This document shows positions 2,331 through 24,683 of a stretch of 24,949 bases of DNA, in pieces. The translations under genes and the position numbers were made by a program. Below the pieces are notes generated by a model. That model searched no databases. It was not told where the DNA came from and saw only the letters and a program-made list of their open reading frames with translations. Source of the DNA: a virus; IMG/VR virus record IMGVR_UViG_3300025010_000225, positions 1 to 24,949 of that record; one strand, given 5' to 3'. The first letter of the stretch is position 1; the number at the start of each line of letters is the position of its first letter.

Positions 2331-3986
2331 TTACCTTACTTCTTCTCTGTCAATTTCCTCTAAACTTTTACCCTCTATTGCATACTCAATAAAGACTTTA
2401 TTGATCCAAGTTGCACTACTCGAAGTATTGATTATCTTAAATCCCTCTCTCATTATCTTTCGGAAGATTGGGTTTTCTTTTGCCATAAATTTACCCTTGA
2501 ACACTTTATAATCAATTTCAGCATCAAATTTAGATAACACTGCTAATATTTCTTCCTTGCTTTTGCCTTGTAAATGTTTACTTACTTTAAAGTATCCGTT
2601 CCATGATAATGCCTCCATTGTCAGGAATTTCTCACGAAGTTCTTTTCTTTCTTCAAGATTCCTACTCGCCATAACTTTAGGGAATGTTTGAATTAATGCA
2701 TCTATAAATAATGTGAGATGGTTGCTTAATTCTTCAATTTCTACTTTTGTTTGTGGGGCATAGTTTTCCTTTAAATTCTTTGATAATACTCCAAATGTGA
2801 TTATATTTTCTGAGTTTGCCTTTATCGCTGTACTTATTACCTCTACTTTAAGATCAGATTTTTTCATTATCTCTCTACATAAACGATTTGTATTATCCTC
2901 CACGTTCAAATACTCTCCTCTTGACTTACTAATTTTAAGAGATTTTGTCGAATATTCAGAGAAAAGTGATTTTGCAGAATCGTCATCTAATAGTTCAACT
3001 ACGATTGACATTTGATATTCAGCAGGATTTGGAACTGAATTTGCATCACGGCGATAAGCCTTTAAAATCTTCGAAAATGCACACAGTCTATGTTGACCAT
3101 CTAGGATATCTAATGTTTGATTAATAGAACCTGAAAGCGTATGTTCGTCTTCATCATAATTAATATCCCCTTTTTCTGGGTTCCAGTTGACAGTTAAAAA
3201 TCCTCCAAACATTCGATTTTTGACTATACTTTCATAGATCAAATTTACTTGTTTTTGTGACCGTACAGCTAATAATTCTCCATTTTTCCCGTTACGATAA
3301 CCTCGCTGTAATTCGCCATTATACGACAAAATTCCCCTATCAAAGTAAGAAGCCAATGTTTCAATATTAGCAGTCATTTGGTATTTGACTAGTTCCCCAT
3401 TTCGAAAAATTTCTGTTACGTTCTCGAATTTCCATTGTTCAGCACTATTTAACTTTTCCAATCTTTCCTTCATCTGCTTCTTTAGTTTATTCGCTTCTCT
3501 TTTTTTAGTCAATTCATCCTTTTTTCTTTGAGCATCAGTATATTCTTCATTAAACTCATCCTTCGGAATCTGATTATCCCCATTATCCTCCATTTTCACT
3601 TTTTCACTCAAACTACTCAAACTCCCAAATGGTGGCCTCTGATTTCCTTCATCATCCTTATTCTCCCCACTAGCCCCAACAACCCCATCTCTGCTCCCTT
3701 TGTCCCAGATTTTGTCACTCTCATTTTCCATTTCCTTAATCAATTCCATCTCATGTTGCTGAACCATATCCTCATCATTCTCATCCATTGCTTCTTGATA
3801 CCCAACTGCTGTTTGACTTGCTGTCTCATTTACCATACCTAAAACCTCTTCCTTTACCTGATTGACTACATTCATATCCATTTGATTAAACCTATCTTTT
3901 TCCTTACCTTTTCTTGCCATATCCTGTATATCTCCTTCCATTCCCATATTCTCCATATTGCCACTTTTATTAAATTTAAAAATCAT
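2331..3986 (-). CDS. DGQHR-domain protein (DndB-like) with long acidic N-terminal extension
   Basis: 551 residues. The diagnostic motif DGQHR is at 296-300 (LDILDGQHRL), within a ParB/sulfiredoxin-like fold running from about 185 to 540. This architecture is shared with DndB, the regulator of DNA phosphorothioation, and with orphan DGQHR proteins on phages and plasmids. The first 180 residues are different: Met-rich, strongly acidic, probably disordered, ending in a Lys/Glu-rich helix (about 150-178). No dndA/C/D/E or dpt gene is visible here, so a phosphorothioation role is not supported by context. The ATG has an AGAAGG SD 10 bases upstream and its own consensus promoter, so it is transcribed apart from the M23/ATPase operon. 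It could be a DNA-binding regulator, an NTPase or an anti-defence factor; the biochemical activity is unknown. Confidence 0.7.
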   Translation of the reverse strand: MIFKFNKSGNMENMGMEGDIQDMARKGKEKDRFNQMDMNVVNQVKEEVLGMVNETASQTAVGYQEAMDENDEDMVQQHEMELIKEMENESDKIWDKGSRDGVVGASGENKDDEGNQRPPFGSLSSLSEKVKMEDNGDNQIPKDEFNEEYTDAQRKKDELTKKREANKLKKQMKERLEKLNSAEQWKFENVTEIFRNGELVKYQMTANIETLASYFDRGILSYNGELQRGYRNGKNGELLAVRSQKQVNLIYESIVKNRMFGGFLTVNWNPEKGDINYDEDEHTLSGSINQTLDILDGQHRLCAFSKILKAYRRDANSVPNPAEYQMSIVVELLDDDSAKSLFSEYSTKSLKISKSRGEYLNVEDNTNRLCREIMKKSDLKVEVISTAIKANSENIITFGVLSKNLKENYAPQTKVEIEELSNHLTLFIDALIQTFPKVMASRNLEERKELREKFLTMEALSWNGYFKVSKHLQGKSKEEILAVLSKFDAEIDYKVFKGKFMAKENPIFRKIMREGFKIINTSSSATWINKVFIEYAIEGKSLEEIDREEVR

Positions 3987-4070: not shown

Positions 4071-4104
4071 AAAAAAAGATGAGCATGTCCAATCACTCAT
4101 CTTT
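4071..4104 (-). terminator. Terminator of the membrane-ATPase operon
   Basis: On the minus strand AAAGATGAG pairs with CTCATCTTT (9 bp) and the right arm runs straight into a T-run (4071-4077 in plus coordinates). The left arm lies inside the last codons of the M23 peptidase gene, so the stop codon is in the loop side of the hairpin. Confidence 0.85.
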
Positions 4105-4647
4105 AAACTCATCAATATTCTGAGGTAAATATTTATTAGCATCAAAATCTGGTACATTATTTTCCTTATCACTCTTACTAATATCTGTATTCTTATTCAC
4201 AAAATCCATTGGATTATAACAAATACATCCTTTCCTCAATTCCCAATGACAATGTATCCCCAAACTCCTTCCAGAATTTCCGCTAATTGCAATGGTATCT
4301 CCTTGTTTAACTTTATCTCCAACTTTAACTAAATTCTCACTATTATGACCATATAATGTTTCTACATTGTCAATATGAGAAATCATCACACAATTACCAT
4401 ATACGCCTTTCCATCCAGAAAAAGAAACTATTCCATTGTTAGAAGCATGGATAGGTTCTACATTACAACCTATATCAATTCCATGATGCAAATCACCTTT
4501 AAATTCCTGTGTAATTACTCCATCAACAGGCATAATCCAAGTATCATTCTCACTATATAAATACTTCCTACTACATAAATAAATTAATAAAACCATTACA
4601 ATAATAAAATATCTATTGTTCCTTAATATATCCATAAAAATATTCAT
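4093..4647 (-). CDS. Membrane-anchored M23 (LytM-type) metallopeptidase
   Basis: 184 residues. One N-terminal membrane helix (about 12-27, FIIVMVLLIYL) after a short positive tail suggests an anchored enzyme facing the cell wall. The M23 domain spans about 38-150 with the expected zinc ligands: HHGID (His 55, Asp 58) and HCHWE (His 132, His 134). YGH at 99-101 supplies the further active-site His. M23 enzymes cut peptide cross-links in peptidoglycan. The last 35 residues are an acidic tail. The ATG follows the ATPase stop by 2 bp, with an AAGGAG SD inside the ATPase gene, so the two are co-translated. In secretion and conjugation operons such hydrolases open the wall for a machine. A lytic role in a phage is less likely given the anchor and context. 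Confidence 0.85.
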   Translation of the reverse strand: MNIFMDILRNNRYFIIVMVLLIYLCSRKYLYSENDTWIMPVDGVITQEFKGDLHHGIDIGCNVEPIHASNNGIVSFSGWKGVYGNCVMISHIDNVETLYGHNSENLVKVGDKVKQGDTIAISGNSGRSLGIHCHWELRKGCICYNPMDFVNKNTDISKSDKENNVPDFDANKYLPQNIDEFKDE

Positions 4648-4649
4648 AA

Positions 4650-7022
4650 TTACACTCCTTTTATAGGAGCAGGTAATTTTGTAATAAACTTTGCATACCC
4701 TTCTTTACATTTGATTAAATTTAAAGAATTGTATCTAGGCAACTTCAGTAAATCCTCCATCTCATACGGTTGTAATTCATCTTTTAATTCATTATAATTT
4801 TGCTTATCACATCCAGATAATAACATATAGCTTGCATTTGCACTTCTTAATTCATCTCTAATTCCTTTGATCTGATTCAAATAATGGCAACTAATAATAG
4901 GTTTAAGTCGGAACTTGGCTAAACGAGAAAGTTTTTCAGTTAGAAACAGTTCAGTATGATTAACTTGATATAGTTCATCAATAAATAAATTTACCTTGAT
5001 TCTATCACCTTTATCTCTAAATTTTTCAGCGCGTAATTGAAGTGATAACCACAACTTAGTCATCCAATAAGTGCAATAAACATCTCTTTCTGCATCTGTT
5101 GAAAACATAGATTCAGGCATCCTTAAACATATTAATTGTGGTTTTTGAAGTTCATCAATTAAATTAATATTATTCTCAGTACCTTTTTTTAACATCAATT
5201 CCATATAAGTGTTTGATTTAAGTTTTTGCAAACGATCTAAAATTCCAGTAATATATGAGTGTTTAGTGCCAGTTACATATCCTTCCTTATTTACCTCATC
5301 TAATTCTTCTAGAGCAGAAAGATATTCTGATAAATTATCTTTTTGACTAGAAGGGACATTGTGAATAAAATTACTTCTTACTGAATGATCTACTAAAATA
5401 TCAAAAACATCCTTAATACTTCCACCTTGAATAAACGCAATTATTGAAGATGCTGTAAGATACCTCTCCATTCTTGGAGCAAGAGTTTTTTCATCTGCAT
5501 TGACAGAATTAATAAGAGTTAATAATTGAGTAGTTTGTTTTTTAGCATTGTCATATTGAATAAATACATCAGAATCTATTCCTACCTCATTATAACCAAG
5601 TCCTTGAAGTTTACTTATATCTCCACATTCAATAATTTTAACTCTATCATCAGGAAATACACTAGCAATTTCCATTGATAGTTCACAGTTTTCTATGAAA
5701 TCAAAAATAATACAGCACTCATTGTGTTCCATCGCATTTTTTGCGAGATTGGCAATTAGTACGCTCTTACCACTTCTAGTTGGCCCAACCAAGACCAAAC
5801 ACAATTGTTGATATTCTTTATCTGTACTAAGAAATGCTTCCTGCATAATTCCTCTGTAAGTATTTTTCCCCACGCTCATAATTCCAGTTCTTAAATCTTC
5901 AGGGACTTGGGTTTCTTGAGTATTTACCTTATCAATAAAATTGAATCTATCAAGTATTTTTCTACCTGCTAAAGCAATAAAATTTTGACATTCTCCAGAT
6001 GAAATCTTATTAATTTCTGCTCCTTTTATAGAATAATCAATAGGATTAAATTTCTGACTATAATATTTCGATTTCAGGGAATTGCCACCATCCTCTTCAT
6101 TTATTACCTCAAAACTTTGAGATAAGCTTTTAGCATGATTGATCTCTCTTAATTTATCTACACTTTCTGATAATATAATAATTTGAGTGTTTAATATAAC
6201 ATCTGTTGCTTTAGAATAAGTTGATTTGCTAACTGCTGATTTATTCATTCTTTCAATAACTCTCTCCATTTGTACTAAACTATCTGTGGATAGTCCTTTC
6301 TTTTTAGATGGTTTACCTGAAGTAACTTCTCCTAGTAAATCACTAATCTCAACAACAATAGTTATAAGAAACTTAAATACAAAATTTACGCTTACTTTCT
6401 GCCTATCAGTTGGCAAACCATCTCTTACTTTTTGAATCGTGTTCTTATACTCAGATTTCCATGAAAATTGATTAGTAGGGATAAAATTATAGAATATCCC
6501 TACTTTATCACCTTCCTCTAATACGTCTATGACATTGAGATTTGAATTAAGAAGTTCGCTACTACGTTTATCAATAGATAAACTAAGTGCATTTTCTTTA
6601 GAATAAACCAATTGATATTTAGTTGATTTTTCACAAAATAGAGGAATTACATCAACTTCTTTAATAGTAACATTTGCCCATGAATCCTTAATTTTTTCTC
6701 TTAACAAAGATAAGTAGGTTTTTGGAATTATGAAATAGAATTCTACATTTTCTTTTTCAATAAAAATGAAATATGATACTTTTTCTGGCATTTGATAACT
6801 GTATTTGGTTCCAACCATGAATTGTCTTTTAAATGGATAAAGTCTTATTAATTTCCCTTCCCCCACTTTGATATGGCGAGACACACCTTGAAAAATAGTT
6901 GAAATTGATTTTGCAATTCGATCTGTACTTTTGTTTTCAATGGAATTATTTGGAGTTAATTTTAGATAGACATACTCAGGGTGAATAATTTCAAAATAAT
7001 TACTTAATTTAATTCCCTTCAT
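4650..7022 (-). CDS. HerA/FtsK-superfamily ATPase of the VirB4/VirD4 (TraG-like) type
   Basis: 790 residues. Walker A is GPTRSGKS (413-420, Lys 419) and Walker B is VNLFIDE (677-683, Asp-Glu at 682-683). After Walker B, residues 700-720 (LAKFRLKPIISCHYLNQIKG) resemble the sensor region of conjugative-transfer and HerA-like ATPases. The N-terminal 380 residues have no detectable transmembrane segment of normal strength and may be the assembly domain that docks on the membrane partners. Such ATPases form hexamers that pump DNA or drive type IV secretion. A GAGGAGG SD lies inside the upstream gene, and the M23 gene follows by 2 bp. Whether it is the coupling protein (VirD4) or the VirB4-like motor cannot be settled by eye. 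A DNA-translocating viral ATPase is a less likely alternative. Confidence 0.75.
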   Translation of the reverse strand: MKGIKLSNYFEIIHPEYVYLKLTPNNSIENKSTDRIAKSISTIFQGVSRHIKVGEGKLIRLYPFKRQFMVGTKYSYQMPEKVSYFIFIEKENVEFYFIIPKTYLSLLREKIKDSWANVTIKEVDVIPLFCEKSTKYQLVYSKENALSLSIDKRSSELLNSNLNVIDVLEEGDKVGIFYNFIPTNQFSWKSEYKNTIQKVRDGLPTDRQKVSVNFVFKFLITIVVEISDLLGEVTSGKPSKKKGLSTDSLVQMERVIERMNKSAVSKSTYSKATDVILNTQIIILSESVDKLREINHAKSLSQSFEVINEEDGGNSLKSKYYSQKFNPIDYSIKGAEINKISSGECQNFIALAGRKILDRFNFIDKVNTQETQVPEDLRTGIMSVGKNTYRGIMQEAFLSTDKEYQQLCLVLVGPTRSGKSVLIANLAKNAMEHNECCIIFDFIENCELSMEIASVFPDDRVKIIECGDISKLQGLGYNEVGIDSDVFIQYDNAKKQTTQLLTLINSVNADEKTLAPRMERYLTASSIIAFIQGGSIKDVFDILVDHSVRSNFIHNVPSSQKDNLSEYLSALEELDEVNKEGYVTGTKHSYITGILDRLQKLKSNTYMELMLKKGTENNINLIDELQKPQLICLRMPESMFSTDAERDVYCTYWMTKLWLSLQLRAEKFRDKGDRIKVNLFIDELYQVNHTELFLTEKLSRLAKFRLKPIISCHYLNQIKGIRDELRSANASYMLLSGCDKQNYNELKDELQPYEMEDLLKLPRYNSLNLIKCKEGYAKFITKLPAPIKGV

Positions 7023-7034
7023 TTTATAACCTCC

Positions 7035-7280
7035 TCATCCCAACAAATATTTGATCATGGTATTGCTTACAATTAAAATACCAACCTTTTGCAATCCTGA
7101 CTTATAACCTCCAATATAAAGGATTATAAGCACCCCACAACCGATTAGAGTAACAGCGTGAGACATATATACGATATTTGAAATTAATCCTGTCATAACC
7201 CAATTAAAGCTTTCAGTAATAGTTTCTTTAAGTGCAGTCTTAATGGAAGTAGTAAACCAATCTGCATAATTTACCATCAC
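7035..7280 (-). CDS. Small two-helix membrane protein of the secretion-like module
   Basis: 81 residues with two hydrophobic segments: about 29-50 (VMTGLISNIVYMSHAVTLIG, running into the second stretch) and a tail (VGILIVSNTMIKYLLG). An amphipathic N-terminal region (YADWFTTSIKTALKETITES) precedes them. Size and layout fit VirB3-like or accessory inner-membrane subunits of type IV systems, but the sequence is not diagnostic. The start is GTG 7278-7280, overlapping the stop of the preceding gene in a GTGA junction, or ATG 7275-7277. A GGAGG SD at 6-9 bases serves either one. It lies 12 bp before the ATPase gene in the same operon. Confidence 0.6.
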   Translation of the reverse strand: MMVNYADWFTTSIKTALKETITESFNWVMTGLISNIVYMSHAVTLIGCGVLIILYIGGYKSGLQKVGILIVSNTMIKYLLG

Positions 7281-7618
7281 TTTAATCCTCCTATTAATGC
7301 ATCGATTTGATCTAGGCCGTAAGGAAGTAATAGTAAAAGTGTATACATTCCTAAATAACTAAGGATAGTTTTCTTTGCTGCTTGGAAATCACCTGAGAGT
7401 GCGTGTTGAACTACTTCTAATCCTCCTTTTATTAAAATTACAGCTCTACCAAGACCTAATACTTTCCTATAAAATTTATCTGATGTTTGCTCAATTGTTT
7501 CTACTCCAAGGGCAACTGAAGGATCGATTAGGATAATATATCCAATTATTAATCCTCCTTGCAAATATTTAATTCCATGTTTTTTAAGATGAATTTTAAT
7601 AGAATCTTTCTTTAACAT
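7277..7618 (-). CDS. VirB2/TrbC-like small membrane protein
   Basis: 113 residues, first gene of the minus-strand operon. A hydrophobic segment near 17-37 (GGLIIGYIILIDPSVALGV) resembles a signal or anchor sequence. Then come two helices near 52-66 (VLGLGRAVILIKGGLEVV) and 84-101 (TILSYLGMYTLLLLLPYG) separated by a short polar turn (SGDFQAAKK). That two-helix, Gly-containing layout is typical of VirB2/TrbC pilin-like subunits. The ATG has an AAGGAG SD 9 bases upstream. The reading is by topology and neighbours (a VirB4/VirD4-type ATPase and an M23 peptidase), not by a conserved catalytic motif, so pilin identity is tentative. Confidence 0.6.
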   Translation of the reverse strand: MLKKDSIKIHLKKHGIKYLQGGLIIGYIILIDPSVALGVETIEQTSDKFYRKVLGLGRAVILIKGGLEVVQHALSGDFQAAKKTILSYLGMYTLLLLLPYGLDQIDALIGGLK

Positions 7619-7686
7619 AAATTACCACTCCTTACTTTAAGGAAATATGATAAAAGAGTTCTAAATTGAATGTTTCTTAGCATATT

Positions 7687-7736
7687 GTTAGGTATAACTC
7701 GTTATGCCGAACAAATTTAGCATAATTATACCTAAC
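7687..7736. promoter_or_regulatory. Large bulged hairpin between divergent units
   Basis: GTTAGGTATAA (7687-7697) pairs perfectly with TTATACCTAAC (7726-7736). Inside it TTATGC (7702-7707) pairs with GCATAA (7720-7725), giving 17 bp of pairing with only a CTCG bulge on one side. It lies upstream of the minus-strand membrane operon and of the plus-strand 28-codon gene, and has no T-run. A shared operator, a transfer-origin-type repeat or a leader structure are all possible. The rest of 7619-7818 holds only SD and candidate promoter sequence. Confidence 0.6.
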
Positions 7737-7818
7737 TTTATAATCCCATTTCTTTTGTATATTTCTTATGATTGTTGGTAATAATACAGTCACAAGAAAA
7801 TTTTAAGGAGATGAGATT

Positions 7819-7905
7819 ATGCCATTAGTTGCAGGATTTTATGTTGCTCTAGGAGGTGGAATGATTTACTCAGGAATTTTAACATTAGCAAGTTTATTGA
7901 ATTAG
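7819..7905 (+). CDS. 28-residue hydrophobic Gly-rich peptide
   Basis: ATG 7819-7821 has a strong AAGGAG SD 8 bases upstream and a perfect terminator starting 4 bp after the stop, so the frame has a full expression cassette. The peptide (starts MPLVAGFYVALGGGMIYSG) is one continuous hydrophobic stretch with four glycines around residues 12-14 and 19 and no charged residue, long enough to span a membrane once. It sits opposite the VirB2-like operon. It may be a secretion-module subunit, a small membrane regulator or a toxin-like peptide. It is not homologous by eye to the known type I toxins. Confidence 0.6.
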   Translation: MPLVAGFYVALGGGMIYSGILTLASLLN

Positions 7906-7907
7906 GA

Positions 7908-8153
7908 TTATCCCTCTATATGAGGGATATTTTTTTGCCCAATTTTAGTTAAATAATATGTGTATGAACTTTTCTCTTTGAACCCAAGTTCAACACAATT
8001 AAGAGACAATAAGTGCTTTATATTATCGCGAACTCTAGCATAGCTTAAACCAGTTTTTTCACTAATATTTTTAATAGTTTTTGATTTCATTTGATCTGTA
8101 ATCCCATCTTCCAATAGACTTTTCAAAATATCAATTTCTACTTTACTTAACAT
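7908..8153 (-). CDS. Small winged-helix DNA-binding regulator
   Basis: 81 residues with a winged-helix pattern. A first helix (EIDILKSLLED) is followed by a helix-turn-helix at about 26-52 (KNISEKTGLSYARVRDNIKHL) and a wing at about 53-70 (NCVELGFKEKSSYTYYLTK). The size and position beside a partition operon recall small partition-linked or copy-control repressors, but the fold is common. The ATG follows a GAGGTG SD by 9 bases. It is transcribed divergently from parM across a 322-bp repeat-rich interval, and its promoter would overlap the tandem 10-bp repeats at 8187-8216. That suggests autoregulation or control of the neighbouring genes. Confidence 0.65.
   Translation of the reverse strand: MLSKVEIDILKSLLEDGITDQMKSKTIKNISEKTGLSYARVRDNIKHLLSLNCVELGFKEKSSYTYYLTKIGQKNIPHIEG
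7909..7936 (+). terminator. Terminator of the 28-codon gene
   Basis: TATCCCTC (7909-7916) and GAGGGATA (7922-7929) form an 8-bp stem with a 5-base loop, followed by seven T. The stem overlaps the 3' end of the converging winged-helix gene. Confidence 0.85.
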
Positions 8154-8420: not shown

Positions 8421-8475
8421 CACAATGAGTGATAAACTACATTATATTGCAATATTATTGAGGGGGAATTTAAAA

Positions 8476-9444
8476 ATGAACGAAGAGGTTATTTTAGGGC
8501 TTGATGCAGGAAATTCATATTATAAAACCAGCAAAGGGATAGTATTAAGAGCAAGAATTAAGTTTAATACTGAGGGCGATGGTCTACTCAAAAGCAATAC
8601 TTATCTAGTTAAAAAAGACGGTTTAAGTCATCTTGTAGGCGATCCTGAAGGTAAAACCTATATCAACCCAGATAAGTACACTACAACACATTTTGATCTG
8701 TGTACATTAACTGCTATTGCATTAAGTTTTCCAAGTTGTAAAGATATTAAAGTAAAACTAGTTGTTGGCACTCCTGCTGGTTACTATAAACAACATGCAA
8801 TGGCCTACCTCGAAAAACTAAAAACTATGGGGCCACAAACAATTAATATCGGTGACGGCAGAGGAAATATTAATATTGAAATCACTGATTCTATTTGCTA
8901 CATTCAATCTGGAATCACTGATTCTCAAAAAGAAAAATATGATTATCCCCTATTAGTTTTAGATTTTGGTGGAGGAACTTTAGATGCTTCATTATGGCGT
9001 AGAGGTGATGATATTAATCCTGAAAATACCGAAGTAATTTTAGATTCTAAAGTTAGTTATACTCAATTTGGTTTTGATCAAATATTAGAACAGATGACAA
9101 CGACCTTTAATTCTAAAAATGGAACTAAATTTAAACCTCATGAATTATTGCAATATCTTAAACGGTCAGAAATTACTTTGCGAAAACAAAGTTATGACTT
9201 ACAAAGGACAAAAGATGAAATTCTCATTGATTATATTGATAATGTAATTTCTTCTTTAGAGCAAACATTTGACTTACAACAAGCATTAGAAACCTGTGTC
9301 ATGGGTGGCCCTGCTGAAATATTATTATCTTATCTTAATATTAAACTAGATAATACAGCAAAATTATCTAGTGAACATCCTCAATTGACTAATGCTTTAG
9401 CATATCTTGATGGAGGAAAACAATATTGGGACTTGGATGAGTAA
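8476..9444 (+). CDS. parM: ParM-like actin-family plasmid segregation ATPase
   Basis: 322 residues from ATG 8476. This start, rather than an upstream in-frame ATG at 8425, has a GAGGGGG SD and places the first beta strand right at the N-terminus. The actin-fold signatures are present: phosphate-1 loop LGLDAGNSYYK (7-17, Asp 10), phosphate-2 loop VLDFGGGTLD (161-170) and the adenosine-side motif VMGGPAE (275-281). Size matches plasmid ParM/AlfA-type proteins (about 270-340). These form dynamic filaments that push sister plasmids apart via ParR bound to the centromere. It is followed after 2 bp by a small gene with ParR features and preceded by repeats, the standard parC-parM-parR order. It belongs to the divergent Gram-positive ParM group, so filament properties cannot be inferred. 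Confidence 0.9.
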   Translation: MNEEVILGLDAGNSYYKTSKGIVLRARIKFNTEGDGLLKSNTYLVKKDGLSHLVGDPEGKTYINPDKYTTTHFDLCTLTAIALSFPSCKDIKVKLVVGTPAGYYKQHAMAYLEKLKTMGPQTINIGDGRGNINIEITDSICYIQSGITDSQKEKYDYPLLVLDFGGGTLDASLWRRGDDINPENTEVILDSKVSYTQFGFDQILEQMTTTFNSKNGTKFKPHELLQYLKRSEITLRKQSYDLQRTKDEILIDYIDNVISSLEQTFDLQQALETCVMGGPAEILLSYLNIKLDNTAKLSSEHPQLTNALAYLDGGKQYWDLDE

Positions 9445-9446
9445 TT

Positions 9447-9806
9447 ATGGGTAGCCTAAGAAAATATGTTGGCACAAATCTTAGTTCAAAAAATGACACA
9501 ATTTTAATTGACTATGTAAATCAAATGGAAGAACAAGGAATTTCTAATTCACAGTTGGTTAAAACTTGTTTAAAATTTTACATGGATTATTATCCAAAAA
9601 AACTTAAACTAGATGAATTTAATGAAAAAATTACTGATAATATTGTATCAGGGAAAATTAAGGTTTCTGTAAATAGTGTAAATCCAAAAAAAACGAGAAA
9701 GAAAAATGAAGTTGTTGTGGAGCAACCTGAAGTATTAGAACCTTTGCCTGATAAAAAAAAGGAAAGTATTTTTCTTAAAACTATGAATAATCTTATGTCT
9801 GAGTAA
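9447..9806 (+). CDS. parR: ParR-like centromere-binding protein
   Basis: 119 residues, starting 2 bp after the parM stop. The N-terminal half (1-50) fits a ribbon-helix-helix domain: strand LRKYVGTNLS, then helices TILIDYVNQMEEQG and SNSQLVKTCLKFYMDYY. The middle is basic (KKTRKKNEV) and a short hydrophobic C-terminal helix (ESIFLKTMNNLMSE) resembles the segment by which ParR proteins touch ParM filament ends. These features, size and position fit an adaptor that binds parC and represses the operon. Sequence conservation in this family is low, so the call rests on layout. A terminator follows at once, so parM and this gene form a two-gene operon. Confidence 0.75.
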   Translation: MGSLRKYVGTNLSSKNDTILIDYVNQMEEQGISNSQLVKTCLKFYMDYYPKKLKLDEFNEKITDNIVSGKIKVSVNSVNPKKTRKKNEVVVEQPEVLEPLPDKKKESIFLKTMNNLMSE

Positions 9807-10887: not shown

Positions 10888-10926
10888 AAGCACTATCCAA
10901 AATTAACTGGATAGTGCTTATTTTTG
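10888..10926 (+). terminator. Terminator of the coiled-coil gene
   Basis: AAGCACTATCC (10888-10898) and GGATAGTGCTT (10909-10919) form a perfect 11-bp stem with a 10-base loop, followed by ATTTTTG. Confidence 0.9.
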
Positions 10927-11004
10927 TTTATTACCCTAATTCTCTTCCAGCCTACCACCTAAACATTTTGTCAAAAAAGATATATACATGTTGATAACTT
11001 TTTA

Positions 11005-11013
11005 TGCTATAAT
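11005..11013 (+). promoter_or_regulatory. Extended -10 promoter for the rep leader
   Basis: TGCTATAAT (11005-11013) is an extended -10 box. No convincing -35 sits 16-18 bp upstream; a TTGATA lies too close, at 11 bp. It is the best plus-strand promoter candidate for the leader of the replication-type gene. Confidence 0.45.
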
Positions 11014-11039
11014 ATTCCTGTGGATAATTTAAATACTTT

Positions 11040-11046
11040 AAAGGAG
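11040..11046 (+). promoter_or_regulatory. SD-like site without a proper start codon (possible leader peptide)
   Basis: AAAGGAG at 11040-11046 is followed by TTG at only 2 bases, an ATA at 7 bases and TTG at 12 bases, but no ATG. From ATA 11054 an open frame of about 27 codons runs across the next hairpin. A leader peptide tied to attenuation is conceivable. It may equally be a ribosome-loading site with no product. Confidence 0.3.
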
Positions 11047-11097
11047 ATTTGACATACCTTGTCGAATATATCTACTTAACAAACTCAATAAAATTGA

Positions 11098-11133
11098 AAA
11101 ACCACCTTGTCTGCAAAACAAAGTGGTTTTAAT
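11098..11133. terminator. First leader hairpin (attenuator candidate)
   Basis: AAAACCACCTTG (11098-11109) pairs with CAAAGTGGTTTT (11119-11130) with one mismatch. The A-run and T-run flanks make it terminator-like in both directions. It lies about 90 bp after the leader promoter. Confidence 0.6.
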
Positions 11134-11245
11134 CTAGCAAATGTCCTCTCACCGACATCAGCTTCGATTTCCAAGTTCTAATAAGATTATACCTAAAGAC
11201 ATTCAGAAAATCAAGTCTTTGGTAAATTAGATTAAGGATTTCAAG

Positions 11246-11289
11246 GTTAGTAGTTTTAGTGCAGAGATGTACATGCTACTAACTTTTTT
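11246..11289 (+). terminator. Second leader hairpin with T-run (attenuator candidate)
   Basis: GTTAGTAG (11246-11253) and CTACTAAC (11276-11283) form an 8-bp stem, followed by six T. It sits about 200 bp before the rep start, so readthrough would be needed to express the gene. That fits transcriptional attenuation. Confidence 0.65.
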
Positions 11290-11331
11290 ATTGAGCATGT
11301 TTATAAGAATTACAAACTAAATAAGCAAATG

Positions 11332-11409
11332 CAAAAACCTCCAATTGATGTCGAGTTTGCCGACACAGCATCAATTGGAGGCCCAAAGAGACTAGATGAA
11401 ATTTTCTTA
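11332..11409 (-). ncRNA. Putative antisense (counter-transcribed) RNA in the rep leader
   Basis: The minus strand carries a near-consensus promoter. A hairpin follows about 40 bp downstream: a perfect 13-bp stem (11338-11350 with 11369-11381) with a further TCG/CGA pair, followed by five T on the minus strand. This predicts an RNA of about 75-80 nt that starts near 11409, ends near 11333 and is fully complementary to the rep mRNA leader. The arrangement matches antisense copy-control RNAs of Gram-positive plasmids such as pIP501 and pT181. Ends are estimated from promoter and T-run positions. Confidence 0.7.
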
Positions 11410-11415
11410 TGACTT

Positions 11416-11444
11416 ATTATATCATTTTTAAAATTTCATTTCAA
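11416..11444 (-). promoter_or_regulatory. Strong promoter of the antisense RNA
   Basis: On the minus strand, TTGAAA (11439-11444) and TATAAT (11416-11421) are 17 bp apart, with an extended TGA-TATAAT. It opposes the rep gene 50 bp downstream and is much better than the sense promoter, as expected for an antisense RNA made in excess. Confidence 0.75.
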
Positions 11445-11491
11445 CCCTCTTAGCTTTGCTTTTGGCAAAATGCTGAAAGAAGGTTTTATCA

Positions 11492-12046
11492 TTGAAAGCA
11501 CAACAGCAAGTATTTGAATTTATTAAAGAAAAAATTGGACACAGTACATTATTGGCTATTGCTGGAGACATGACCCCTTTTACTAATGATTCGTTTGATA
11601 ATGCAAGATTTTTAAGTCAGTTACTTTTTTGGGTAGATGATAGCACAGAATGGATTCCTATTCAAATGAAAGAATGGAAAGAAGTTGCTCATTTATCGCG
11701 CTATGCAATAGAAAAAGCTCGTTACTTTTTTTACAACATGGGAGTTCTTGAATATTGTGTTAGAAAAGATTTGAAAGGAAATCCTGTTTCACATTATCGT
11801 TTAGATTTTAAAGCATTAATGAATAAGATGAAAAAATTCTTTAAAGATAATAAATCAAAGCAAATTGTAACTTTTTCTGGTTTTGCTGATTGTTTCAAAA
11901 GGAAAAGTACACAAGAAAAAATCATTAATCCGACAAAAACTTATCCTCAATATAAAGAAAAATTAGAGAGTAAAAATATAGGACAATCTTGTAAAAGTGA
12001 AACTAAAGAAGAAAGAAGAAAGAGATTAGAGAGATTTTACCTATGA
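11492..12046 (+). CDS. Replication-type winged-helix protein (putative plasmid replication initiator)
   Basis: 184 residues with a TTG start (11492-11494) and an AGAAGG SD 8 bases upstream. Residues about 30-112 form the winged-helix module seen in plasmid and phage replication proteins: NARFLSQLLFWVDDSTEW, then EWKEVAHLSRYAIEKARYF (recognition helix) and a wing ending SHYRLDFKAL. The rest (115-184) is basic and probably unstructured (KKFFKDNKSKQ, RRKRLERFYL), suited to DNA or partner binding. It is shorter than most initiators, so it could also be a replisome organiser that loads a host helicase. The antisense RNA and attenuators in its leader are the best argument that it sets copy number. 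An inverted repeat covers its stop codon. Confidence 0.65.
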   Translation: MKAQQQVFEFIKEKIGHSTLLAIAGDMTPFTNDSFDNARFLSQLLFWVDDSTEWIPIQMKEWKEVAHLSRYAIEKARYFFYNMGVLEYCVRKDLKGNPVSHYRLDFKALMNKMKKFFKDNKSKQIVTFSGFADCFKRKSTQEKIINPTKTYPQYKEKLESKNIGQSCKSETKEERRKRLERFYL

Positions 12047-20798: not shown

Positions 20799-23700
20799 TT
20801 AGCGAATTGGGCAAACCCCAGAGGAACATTCTCCATCATTTCCAATATCAAATTCAGTTTCAACTAGTTCATATTTACTAATCAATGAAGGTATAAAAGT
20901 TTTCATTTCACTAACTCTTTTATTATATTCTTTTTCTGTAATAGCTTCTTGTGGCATTAACTGATAAAAAGAATCTGATAGAGATAAGAAACTTACAGCA
21001 ACAACATCGTCCCAATTATTCCAAATCCAATCTTCTACTTGTTCCCATTCATTATCACGAACTGTAACAGTAATCGAAGCATTATGATCAACATAATTAT
21101 CCATAAACATTTTATAATCTTCGAGTTGTTCAATAGCTGATACGTCAAATTTTGTTTTTCCAATAGGTGATTTAACAGGAAATTCAATTACTTTTGTTGT
21201 GCAAGTTTCCCATTCCTGACCGTTTTCTGGAAAGATAGGATAATTTAATTCTTCACAAACTTTTACTAAAGGATCATGAGCGTTTATTCTTACTCTTATA
21301 ATGTACCAAGGAGCTTGAGAATAATGAACACCTGATGAAACGCCTGGAATTTTACTCAATGTTCCTTCTGGTTTCACGGTAGTAATTAATAATGATACTG
21401 GCAATCCTAATTCTTTTGCATATGTATTAATTTCATCATGTGCAGTTTGACGTAATTTTCTTAATAATTCTGCTTCTTCTATCTTATTGATGCCAGTTGC
21501 ATTGACCATATCTTGCCATCCGGTCAAAGAGCATCCAGTTAATCTATCTCTTTTTTGTACAGCATCCCATTTAGGAAGTTCTAGTTCTACACAAGTCATA
21601 CGATATCCTGATCTTGCTGATAATCTTTGTGCTTCTAGCAATGATTTAATATCTAGTAATCCGTCTATTACAAAAGCAAAAACATTCACAGTAGTTAAAT
21701 TACAAAGTCCACAAGAATCAAGTAAAATTTCAGCACAATTATGTGCAACTACATTTTCTACTATTCCCCAATTAGTTTCTGGTTCTGAAAAATCATAAAC
21801 TTTTTGTTTTTCTAAAATATTAATAGATATTACTGTTGGATTTTTCCCATAATATGCTGATAATTCTTTGTTTAAACAATCTTTTGCTTCACATTCTTTG
21901 CCATTGTCTAACATTAAAATATGATCTGGAGTACATTTTATAATTCTATTGTTGCTTAATTGTACTTCAACAATATCTTTTTCCCCATTGCACCAAACTT
22001 TGCCATTTGATACATCGCCATTTAGATTAACAATACTAACTTCTTTCCCGTCTAATTCTTTAAATGTTCTATATCCGTCCGAAGTTAAAAGATTCATATC
22101 ACCAGTAAAACAAGGATTAACCCCATTAAAGTTTGGTCTACGTTTATTACCTGCAATTTCATTAACAAATGCTGGCTCACCAGAATATCTCATTTGTTCA
22201 ATTTGCCAATGAATTTGTTCTCTAGAAGGTTTTTCTTTATAATAAATAGAATTATTACTCATTTGCCTATGAGATAATTCAGTGTCTATTTCCCATTTTC
22301 CATTAATAGGCGATTGTTTATAAAGATTGCTTTTTGCTTTAATACATTCTTCATCATCTGAACCTATAAGCGAAATTTCTGAAGTATTATGAACCAACAT
22401 TCCTTCACAAACAAATTCTTTCGTGCTTTCTACAGATATATCATATGTTTCTTGAAGTTCCTTGTTGTAACTTATACTCAACACTTCAACTGGAATCAAT
22501 TCTTGATTTTCACCACTTATTCTTTCAAAAGTAGAAACAGTCATTTGTCTTGAATCTTTATTCCATATTTTAGAAGTTTTCATGTTTTTTACCCAATCAG
22601 CAGGATAACCATAGTCATTTTGTGAACGATTTGTTTTACAACAATTCTCGTATTTTAAAGATTTGATTGCTATTCTACATTCAAAATCTTTTTTTGCTTT
22701 TTCTCCAATGACTAATAAGTTATATAAATCTTTCCATTTACCTTTGGTTTTTCTTTTTAATTTAAATCTAGAAGGTATTCCAATTGAGGAGAATAGTGAT
22801 TGTACCTGTTTCGTAAAATTAGGATAAACTGAAGACAAGGCAATAACGGGATGATTTTTTGTTGACCCATCTGCATCATACAATCCAGTTAGATATGATT
22901 CCCTAATATTTATTTCACCTTGTAAAATAATATTAGGAATAATTATTTCTACATTAGGCTTTTTATATTGAGAAAGATATTCTGCTAATTGTGTGCTTTT
23001 AGCTTCAACATTGAACCATTTGCCTTTTGTTGGTTTGTCGTGTGCTATAATACCAAAACTTTCGAATATTTTATAAACTTTTTCTCTAATATTTGGTTTT
23101 GTACTCGGAATACTTACACTAACTGCCCTTTTGCTTACATGTCCATTTCCATGTAAATATCCTAAAAACCAAGCAGTATCTTCGTTTAATTCTGGAATTA
23201 CAATATCTACGCTAGTTGTATCATGAATGTCTCTTACATGATGATACTCTGGTAACTCTGTTTTTATACCATCGATAGTTTTACTAACAAAAACCATTCT
23301 GTCGTTCTCTTTTAAATCTTTTGCATATATCCACTCATAACTATTAACATTGTTCATGATTGCTATTTTATGTTTAGGAGTACATTTAAACTCTCCCATT
23401 TGAGTATTAATAGTTAATAATTCTTGCACTCCTTGATAGACCCAATCTGTAACTGGAGCATAACCTTTCGATGTCATAACCATATCATTGATTTTAACTT
23501 GTTCAATTGGAATTAATCCATTTTCCGTATGAACTAATGATCCCTTGGGCAGACATCTTCTTACGCCTCCGATAACAACATTTTCGCCAATAGCATTTAA
23601 AATATCCATACAATTAATTGGTTTTAATTTAATCTTTTCTTGAACTTGATTAGTTCCTTCTTTTTTGATAATCTTATCTACTTTAGCAAACATTGATTTT

Positions 23701-24683
23701 AAACTTTCATATCCAGAAGCAGTTCCACCAAATGTTTTTAATCTTTCTCCTTTTGGTCTAACATTATCATAATCAAACACAATGGTTTTAATATCAATAA
23801 AGTCCTTATCCCATAACATTTTTAAAAAATAATCTAATGCTTGAACCCATCCACCCTTACTATCCCCAACAATAATCTTGACCATATTATTGTTAGTGAA
23901 TTGAATTGATGTGCTATCTTCTCGTTTGTCTCTTGAGACTGAAGAGTAGGCTTTATGTATAACTTCTACATTTGTTTTTACTCTAGGAAGTTTAGCAACA
24001 TCATCTTTTAAAATACGGAATCCAAACCCAGAACCAATCATCAATAAGTAAAAAGCGTCCTTAAATGCTTCAAAATTATCAATTACAGCGAAGCTACAGT
24101 TATAATTTGAGGTGGGGAATTTTTCTGAAACTAATGTTCCACCTATGTATAGTGTCCTACCTGATAGGAATTGTCTAAGATAAAACATATTATCATATAA
24201 TTTTTCAGCTTCTTCTCTAGAGGTTGGAACTAATCCACAATTATATTCTACTGCTCTTTTTACTGTCTCCCACCAATACTCCCTACGTTGTTCTTCAGGT
24301 AAATATCTACTATATGTACGATAATAAACAAAACTTCCTAATTGATTCATAGGGGATGGTAAATGTTTATATTTACTTATAAATTCTTCACTAAGAAGTC
24401 CTTTTACTTTATTCTTACGAGTCTTATCTCTTTGATTGCGATAAATTATATATCTCTTAGCAACATCTTTTCGATTACTTTCCATCAACATATCTTCTAC
24501 AAAATCTTGTATATTTTCAACTGAGTATAATTCTAGTCCAATAGACTCAATTTTATTCGCAATATCATAACTTAGTTTTGTATCAACACCATCTTTTGTT
24601 TCAAGCATTGCATTTTCAACTGCTCGAATTATGCTACTTTTATCAAAGTTAACTAATGTACTATTTCTTTTTTGTACTTTCAA
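20799..24683 (-). CDS. nrdJ: Class II adenosylcobalamin-dependent ribonucleotide reductase with two inteins
   Basis: 1294 residues with a UUG start (GGAGG SD 8 bases upstream); removing two inteins (377-766 and 858-982) leaves 779. Residues 1-90 form an ATP-cone (starts MKVQKRNSTLVNFDKSSIIR). NYNCSF (194-199) holds the first redox Cys and NPCAEILLDSCGLCNLTTVN the catalytic Cys (983) and partner Cys. KPEGTLSKIPGVSSG (about 1104-1118) matches the cobalamin-type active region, and the C-terminal GECSSGVCPIR the final redox pair. The enzyme reduces ribonucleotides without oxygen dependence but needs vitamin B12 coenzyme. It is the first gene of the dNTP block and is followed by the HNH endonuclease and dUTPase. 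Both inteins must splice for activity, because the second sits next to the catalytic Cys. Confidence 0.9.
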   Translation of the reverse strand: MKVQKRNSTLVNFDKSSIIRAVENAMLETKDGVDTKLSYDIANKIESIGLELYSVENIQDFVEDMLMESNRKDVAKRYIIYRNQRDKTRKNKVKGLLSEEFISKYKHLPSPMNQLGSFVYYRTYSRYLPEEQRREYWWETVKRAVEYNCGLVPTSREEAEKLYDNMFYLRQFLSGRTLYIGGTLVSEKFPTSNYNCSFAVIDNFEAFKDAFYLLMIGSGFGFRILKDDVAKLPRVKTNVEVIHKAYSSVSRDKREDSTSIQFTNNNMVKIIVGDSKGGWVQALDYFLKMLWDKDFIDIKTIVFDYDNVRPKGERLKTFGGTASGYESLKSMFAKVDKIIKKEGTNQVQEKIKLKPINCMDILNAIGENVVIGGVRRCLPKGSLVHTENGLIPIEQVKINDMVMTSKGYAPVTDWVYQGVQELLTINTQMGEFKCTPKHKIAIMNNVNSYEWIYAKDLKENDRMVFVSKTIDGIKTELPEYHHVRDIHDTTSVDIVIPELNEDTAWFLGYLHGNGHVSKRAVSVSIPSTKPNIREKVYKIFESFGIIAHDKPTKGKWFNVEAKSTQLAEYLSQYKKPNVEIIIPNIILQGEINIRESYLTGLYDADGSTKNHPVIALSSVYPNFTKQVQSLFSSIGIPSRFKLKRKTKGKWKDLYNLLVIGEKAKKDFECRIAIKSLKYENCCKTNRSQNDYGYPADWVKNMKTSKIWNKDSRQMTVSTFERISGENQELIPVEVLSISYNKELQETYDISVESTKEFVCEGMLVHNTSEISLIGSDDEECIKAKSNLYKQSPINGKWEIDTELSHRQMSNNSIYYKEKPSREQIHWQIEQMRYSGEPAFVNEIAGNKRRPNFNGVNPCFTGDMNLLTSDGYRTFKELDGKEVSIVNLNGDVSNGKVWCNGEKDIVEVQLSNNRIIKCTPDHILMLDNGKECEAKDCLNKELSAYYGKNPTVISINILEKQKVYDFSEPETNWGIVENVVAHNCAEILLDSCGLCNLTTVNVFAFVIDGLLDIKSLLEAQRLSARSGYRMTCVELELPKWDAVQKRDRLTGCSLTGWQDMVNATGINKIEEAELLRKLRQTAHDEINTYAKELGLPVSLLITTVKPEGTLSKIPGVSSGVHYSQAPWYIIRVRINAHDPLVKVCEELNYPIFPENGQEWETCTTKVIEFPVKSPIGKTKFDVSAIEQLEDYKMFMDNYVDHNASITVTVRDNEWEQVEDWIWNNWDDVVAVSFLSLSDSFYQLMPQEAITEKEYNKRVSEMKTFIPSLISKYELVETEFDIGNDGECSSGVCPIR
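21738..22112 (-). other. Mini-intein 2 of the reductase (125 residues)
   Basis: Residues 858-982. It begins CFTGDMNLLTSDGYRTFKEL, has block B IKCTPDHILM (TPDH), block F VYDFSEPETNWGIVENVV and ends AHN before the extein +1 Cys. There is no endonuclease segment. Length 125 is near the lower limit for natural mini-inteins. The insertion is between NP and CAEI, so the +1 residue is the reductase catalytic Cys. Confidence 0.9.
22386..23555 (-). other. Intein 1 of the reductase with LAGLIDADG endonuclease (390 residues)
   Basis: Residues 377-766, bounded by GGVRR and TSEIS. It begins CLPKGSLVHTENG (block A), has FKCTPKHKI (block B), LAGLIDADG-type motifs FLGYLHGNG (near 507-515) and LTGLYDADG (near 598-606), block F ETYDISVESTKEFVCEGM and ends LVHN. 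The +1 residue is Thr. The first endonuclease motif has Asn where the catalytic Asp is expected. Confidence 0.9.

Follow-up and report, generated by a model that had tools for sequence, protein, structure and literature searches.

The region that precedes the replication-initiator gene in the window (the whole stretch of DNA analysed here, a 24.9-kb virus record) is probably the copy-control leader of a phage-plasmid, in which one antisense RNA, A, would switch translation and a second, B, would attenuate transcription at the intrinsic terminator T1 (Table 1). By phage-plasmid we mean here a temperate, tailed phage that is maintained as a plasmid of low copy number, which is the best explanation for this DNA. 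On sequence and conservation, the rep leader contains a predicted antisense RNA that has a promoter and a terminator to itself. In the mechanism we propose, the rep mRNA would be transcribed from about 11020, and antisense RNAs B and A would be read off the other strand, each stopping at a separate hairpin terminator. RNA B would pair with P2 and P3 of the nascent leader and, with P3 occupied, T1 would fold and most transcripts would end before the initiator gene. RNA A would bind hairpin A and the 5' strand of P6; with P6 blocked, P7 would close over the Shine-Dalgarno sequence and translation of the initiator would stop. As copy number goes up, both RNAs would accumulate proportionally and initiator synthesis would fall, which would result in copy control and incompatibility.

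Table 1. Features of the leader and initiator gene, in window coordinates.
Feature	Position	Strand	Basis
Bidirectional terminator closing the upstream gene	10888..10919	both	terminator search; z -6.5
Two DnaA boxes, TTATCAACA and TTATCCACA	10989-10997 and 11019-11027	minus	
Likely rep (sense) promoter, extended -10 TGCTATAAT	11005-11013	+	sequence
P1, long-range stem, 5' strand CTCAATAAAA and 3' strand TTTTATTGAG	11084-11093 / 11286-11295	+	covariation
Antisense RNA B, predicted ~85 nt, from ~11179 to terminator	11093..11179	minus	conserved promoter and terminator; transcript predicted
P2, terminator hairpin of antisense RNA B	11098..11130	minus	wobble bias, compensatory changes
P3, hairpin, putative RNA B target; loop complementary to 5' part of T1	11140..11158	+	folding, complementarity (suggestive)
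Promoter B, TTGATT-17-TATAAT	11186..11214	minus	promoter search
T1, sense intrinsic terminator/attenuator	11244..11289	+	fold z -3.0, wobble bias
Antisense RNA A, predicted ~77 nt	11333..11409	minus	promoter, fold, conservation
Hairpin A, antisense-A terminator (minus) and antisense target (plus)	11338..11381	both	compensatory changes
P6, long-range stem	11386-11405 / 11430-11451	+	folding
Promoter A, TTGAAA-17-TATAAT plus extended -10	11416..11444	minus	promoter search, conservation
P7, hairpin masking Shine-Dalgarno AGAAGG (11478-11483)	11452..11485	+	folding
Replication-initiator gene, TTG start, 184 aa	11492..12046	+	PHROG matches

Scans of IMG/VR gave 13 full or near-full leaders, the window included. 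These were reached by a protein scan (L003/L009 and L004/L010), by exact leader patterns (L007, L008, L011, L012, L014, L015, and L021, with L007 and L008 having the same leader and being counted once), and by way of other initiators (L029, L036, L039, and L040). Nearly all stem from metagenomes 3300024999-3300025012, with L039 coming from 3300050190, and the leaders are not independent of one another. The left end of the L012 leader is missing, so the 5' side of P1 is absent from it, and another locus from the DNA-pattern scan, L013, was rejected as a chance match within a gene. At the DNA level, relatives of the leader were found neither among annotated phages and plasmids nor in the genome contigs scanned, and the plasmid collection held no DNA similar to it. 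Moreover, four loci (L038, L041, L042, and L043, upstream of position 1501) appear by eye to be reduced versions with an A-like antisense unit only, placed before an initiator of the L012 type. L038 and L041 keep the A-like hairpin unit and have no T1/B half, and L042 and L043 show an A-like hairpin plus a minus promoter. Possibly, these reduced versions are the ancestral form.

At its start, the leader follows the terminator of the upstream gene and therefore needs a promoter of its own. The weak sense promoter that the earlier note had seen here has an extended -10, which is identical in L009 and L007, and a weak -35, none being clear; from this sequence, the rep transcript would likely start near 11020. 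DnaA boxes number two to four per leader in each of the eight leaders checked, against a null of 0.02 exact boxes per 240 b. At 11042-11071 and in the equivalent places, an SD-like AGGAGA has NTGTCGAATATA behind it at an unvarying distance of 12 nt, and both are nearly constant; the first base of the NTG in this element varies (A/G/T/C), with L039 reading NTGTAGAATATA. A leader peptide at this site was rejected, as no frame is conserved and L039 has ATG TAG in the NTG frame.

On the minus strand, promoter A is the best promoter of the region, with 11 of 12 consensus matches, and the RNA that would be read from it (11412-11333) folds into a hairpin followed by a T-run (z -3.4, with -6.1 for the plus-strand stretch). 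Hairpin A itself measures 44 nt with 14 bp and precedes T5 on the minus strand. The opposing promoter, the hairpin with its T-run, and the minus transcript of 75-80 nt that the earlier note had put forward thus stand, the last as a prediction from sequence that is consistent with RNA-A footprints of 72-78 nt in the relatives. Despite diverged sequence, the top-scoring minus promoter lies 59-63 nt beyond hairpin A in 13/13 leaders (in L021, it reads TTGCAA-17-TAAAAT). Hairpin covariance across homologues, which had been suggested as a check, was found for both antisense terminators, with compensatory changes at 14/14 pairs of hairpin A (12 sequences, two of them A-only loci) and at 8/10 positions of P2. 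In fact, hairpin A was also recovered by RNAalifold on a MAFFT alignment, where 14 of the 18 predicted pairs, mostly in hairpin A, had both partners altered in one or more sequences. Judged from these sequence comparisons, the placement of promoter A and the compensatory change in hairpin A exceed chance. The hairpin-A core of L029 (1359-1384) is the exact reverse complement of window 11347-11372 (GATGTCGAGTTTGCCGACACAGCATC), and hairpin A is therefore inverted in L029; such an inversion of the antisense target loop may be a way of changing compatibility.

As a Shine-Dalgarno switch, antisense RNA A is well supported in silico. Here, the probability that the whole Shine-Dalgarno sequence is open was computed for the free leader and for the leader with the RNA-A footprint masked. 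Masking lowered this computed probability by 19- to 49,000-fold in 13/13 leaders, and in the window from 0.012 to 3.9e-5 (310-fold), although the mean exposure of the window Shine-Dalgarno stays low whether or not the footprint is masked (0.11 v 0.10). When only hairpin A was masked, the effect was small in most leaders and 30-fold in the window, with most of the effect coming from the 5' strand of P6. This strand falls under the predicted RNA A, and, according to folding, a formed P6 favors an open Shine-Dalgarno. With dinucleotide shuffles of the P6 5' strand, the native openness was reached by 0/100 window shuffles and by 0-7% of the shuffles of each other leader. The P7 3' arm, AAATGCTGAAAGAAGGTTTT, has the same sequence in eight of the 13 leaders. 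The coupling of P6 and P7 is less direct in the window than in L009 or L012, because the folded P7 misses P6 in the window.

The earlier note described one antisense unit and missed another on the minus strand, which has its promoter at 11214-11186 and its terminator at 11130-11098. The terminator-like hairpin reported at 11098-11133 is real (z -2.9), but it makes the better terminator on the minus strand, at 11098-11130, where it carries a GGTGGTTTTTC tail. When the P2 pairs are read as sense, the 102 cells comprise 92 Watson-Crick, 10 C-A, and no G-U pairs, and since a C-A in sense is a G-U in the minus RNA (10 versus 0), P2 was kept as a minus-strand structure. With P2 being better on the minus strand and the near-consensus promoter B ahead of it, there are therefore two antisense units and not one, which lie in tandem as B (~11179-11093) and A (~11409-11333) with the sense terminator T1 between them. 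In 12/13 leaders, the equivalent of promoter B scores highest and its distance hardly varies, with spacers and surroundings that differ; in L010, another site scores better. We infer that both minus transcripts exist. As a separate observation, the P2 loops (window 11106-11122) keep UGCAA, mostly as a palindromic UUGCAA, while the stems vary, and this UGCAA might serve as a kissing or dimer contact.

The second hairpin that had been called terminator-like, at 11246-11289, is likewise real and corresponds to T1. Over both of its stems, T1 has nine G-U and no C-A pairs (four and none for the lower stem in another sequence set), and it was kept as a sense structure because the wobble pairs occur only in the sense RNA. 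P1 is paired in 104/104 cells in 11 leaders, with two compensatory positions, and is not evident in L039. The P1–T1 domain spans about 215 nt and is multibranched, with a near-constant T1 stem and a GNRA-like tip in most copies. As for the antisense attenuation proposed earlier, antisense control of the leader holds, but RNA A cannot attenuate at T1 because it lies downstream of T1, and it fits a translational switch; any attenuation would fall to the upstream antisense RNA B. A switch between leader folds had also been proposed, by pairing of CGACATC (11153-11159) with GATGTCG (11347-11353), and this has to be given up: the two are present and complementary (8 nt), but only in the window, and the sites in 12 relatives are complementary over just 3-5 nt, which is chance level.

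As for RNA B, complementarity in matching registers exists between the P3 loop and the 5' part of T1 (CAAAC/GUUUG plus UUCC/GGAA in L012, ACCAA/UUGGU in L014, and CACC/GGUG in L009). For this complementarity, shuffling gave a Fisher-combined p of 0.005 over eight types, with the register picked after inspection, a cognate-versus-permuted p of 0.07, and a p of 0.2 for the window alone. When the leader was folded as it stands before the T1 3' arm exists, P3–T1 pairing was predicted in six of nine leaders, the window not being among them. At equilibrium, T1 formed at near 1.0 with or without B in eight leaders, including the window, and at 0.70 v 1.00 in L014; equilibrium folding is thus uninformative on an effect of RNA B in the window, where T1 is fully formed in both states. 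The complementarity would be suggestive of a pT181-type pre-emptor pairing between P3 and T1 that is blocked by RNA B, and we regard attenuation of transcription at T1 by RNA B as likely but unproven.

Alternatively, RNA A alone might regulate the initiator, much as in pSK41, with T1 setting basal expression or sensing some other signal and RNA B being a by-product. We think this unlikely, even with L038 and L041 keeping an A-like unit without the T1/B half, no effect of RNA B on T1 in equilibrium folding, and a weak P3–T1 test, since 12-13 leaders preserve promoter B together with its terminator hairpin and show a minus-strand wobble bias, which a by-product would not need. Less probable still, the P1–T1 domain could be a riboswitch-like attenuator responsive to a ligand or a protein, with the minus promoters serving other ends. 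A multibranched fold with a long-range P1 does recur in the leaders examined, and the 5' element NTGTCGAATATA is conserved at a constant distance behind its AGGAGA, but no Rfam family was found for the leader at the gathering threshold, the loops differ between leaders, and P2 is selected as a minus RNA. A minus-strand match to L10_leader (E 0.0026) was rejected, being sub-threshold and not reproduced in L007.

The copy-control leader with two predicted antisense RNAs, which remains our preferred reading, stands before three types of initiator (window/L003/L004, L007/L014/L011/L015, and L012/L021) that are at best marginally similar, the first two at E 0.002. L011 and L012 have the hairpin-A sequence in common but differ in the initiator, whereas L012 and L021 have the initiator in common (85%) but differ in hairpin A. 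From this reassortment, the control cassette has been exchanged independently of the initiator, and neither the P1 types nor the hairpin-A types track the initiator type. That the hairpins are just terminators or DNA-level sites (e.g. for initiator binding) and the minus promoters chance occurrences in AT-rich DNA is highly improbable: the region is AT-rich and its eight promoter-like sites compare with 6.8 expected, but all 13 leaders have promoter A as their top minus site, equally far from hairpin A, although the sequence has diverged, the P1 and hairpin-A types do not follow the initiator type, and P6/P7 are, as computed, coupled to the RNA-A footprint in 13/13 leaders. Only tentatively would we go on to propose a new type of replicon control, with two independent antisense RNAs, B (attenuating transcription) and A (switching translation at the Shine-Dalgarno), that act in series on a single leader as an exchangeable cassette of large phage-plasmids that have different initiators.

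As for the initiator itself, the window protein has PHROG matches to 'replication initiation O-like' at 2.6e-10 and to 'DnaD-like helicase loader' at 1.6e-9. The DnaD-like family was also matched by initiators of the L007 type (3e-19) and the L011 type (2e-20). In Pfam, the L012-type initiator passes the cut-off for Phage_rep_O (PF04492) with 36.4 against 28.7 bits; the window initiator has no match to this family, none to RepA_N, and is not recognised as Rep_trans. Its AlphaFold model is of low confidence (mean pLDDT 42). On these family matches, the window protein presumably initiates replication. The earlier suggestion of a short, non-classical initiator in an undescribed replicon is supported, as is antisense-RNA control ahead of it.

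Adjoining the leader is an actin-like ParM (ALP_N; PHROG partition protein), and the 119-aa gene directly 3' of it could be its ParR partner. A relative of the window, G004 (118 kb), encodes a tape measure protein, DNA polymerase, DnaB, primase, and endolysin, and its single record combines phage structural genes with plasmid replication/partition genes. Of the window proteins, nine have matches in G004, and two of these, from the partition region, are 92-94% identical; no structural gene was recognised in the 25-kb window. Given the gene content of G004 and the partition genes, the relatives of the window are tailed phages with plasmid functions, and the source is a large virus of bacteria that is probably plasmid-like.

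Several other parts of the records were also noted. The partition module beside the leader (window 8425-9806, L003 2218-3329, L004 3170-4248, and L011 2552-3690) comes in two forms, with two ParM-like proteins that have different small partners, and is another exchangeable part. Window 20799-24683 encodes a ribonucleotide reductase (RNR_Alpha, B12-type insertion domain) that also has intein-splicing (in two stretches) and LAGLIDADG endonuclease domains. A DndB-like protein (Pfam DndB, 1.7e-20) at window 2331-3986 has a copy of 63% identity in G004, and no other dnd genes were recognised. The minus-strand cluster at window 4093-8153, with an M23 peptidase, a 790-aa P-loop ATPase (phrog_5156, 1.1e-76), and small membrane-looking proteins, is reminiscent of a transfer or secretion apparatus.

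Among known systems, RNAI of the staphylococcal RepA_N plasmid pSK41 is an antisense RNA of ~83 nt, complementary to a stretch ~100 nt upstream of the rep translation start, and is proposed to bring about a stem-loop masking the ribosome-binding site (PMC5703833). The likeness lies in a Shine-Dalgarno-hiding hairpin that follows masking of the antisense footprint, which here is computed, although the present initiator is not a RepA_N protein and the leader has, in addition, a second predicted antisense RNA and an attenuator further upstream. In pT181, the terminator directly precedes the start codon, and the ribosome-binding site is predicted to lie within it (PMC5703833). The window leader is similar in its predicted antisense RNA against the rep leader, intrinsic terminator, and candidate pre-emptor pairing, but differs in that T1 ends ~200 nt upstream of the start codon at 11492, the Shine-Dalgarno hairpin is separate, and the initiator is not recognised as Rep_trans. 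Inc18 plasmid pIP501, with RNAIII and CopR, has a long rep leader, an internal minus promoter, and an attenuator, with one antisense RNA (PMC5703833, PMC4981023); the window shares the layout of the leader, though with two predicted antisense RNAs, without a recognised CopR-like repressor upstream, and without a RepR-type initiator. The proposed window system also resembles cluster A mycobacteriophages, which have an extrachromosomal prophage with a non-coding RNA beside the partition genes, and in the non-RepA members the RNA is required for replication itself and an initiator protein was not found (PMC7157519), whereas the window has an initiator gene after the leader and its predicted RNAs look regulatory. 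When proteins alone were compared, the DnaD-like/lambda O-like initiators of Geobacillus phage NIIg9.7 and Staphylococcus phage 37 showed N-terminal winged-helix similarity to the window initiator, but with ~23-36% identity over roughly half the protein.

In the open-access literature searched, we came across neither a case of two antisense RNAs directed at different steps within a single initiator leader nor such a phage-plasmid cassette. Each half of the leader resembles a known control (pSK41 for the one, pT181/pIP501 for the other), and by this comparison the combination would be the first found in that literature. How large phage-plasmids are maintained at low copy is poorly known, and the leader offers a concrete cassette with nucleotide-level predictions. 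The antisense target loop varies between leaders, once by exact inversion, which could give rise to new compatibility groups; with a control cassette that is independent of the initiator type, such natural antisense-loop variants may define the compatibility of co-resident phage-plasmids.
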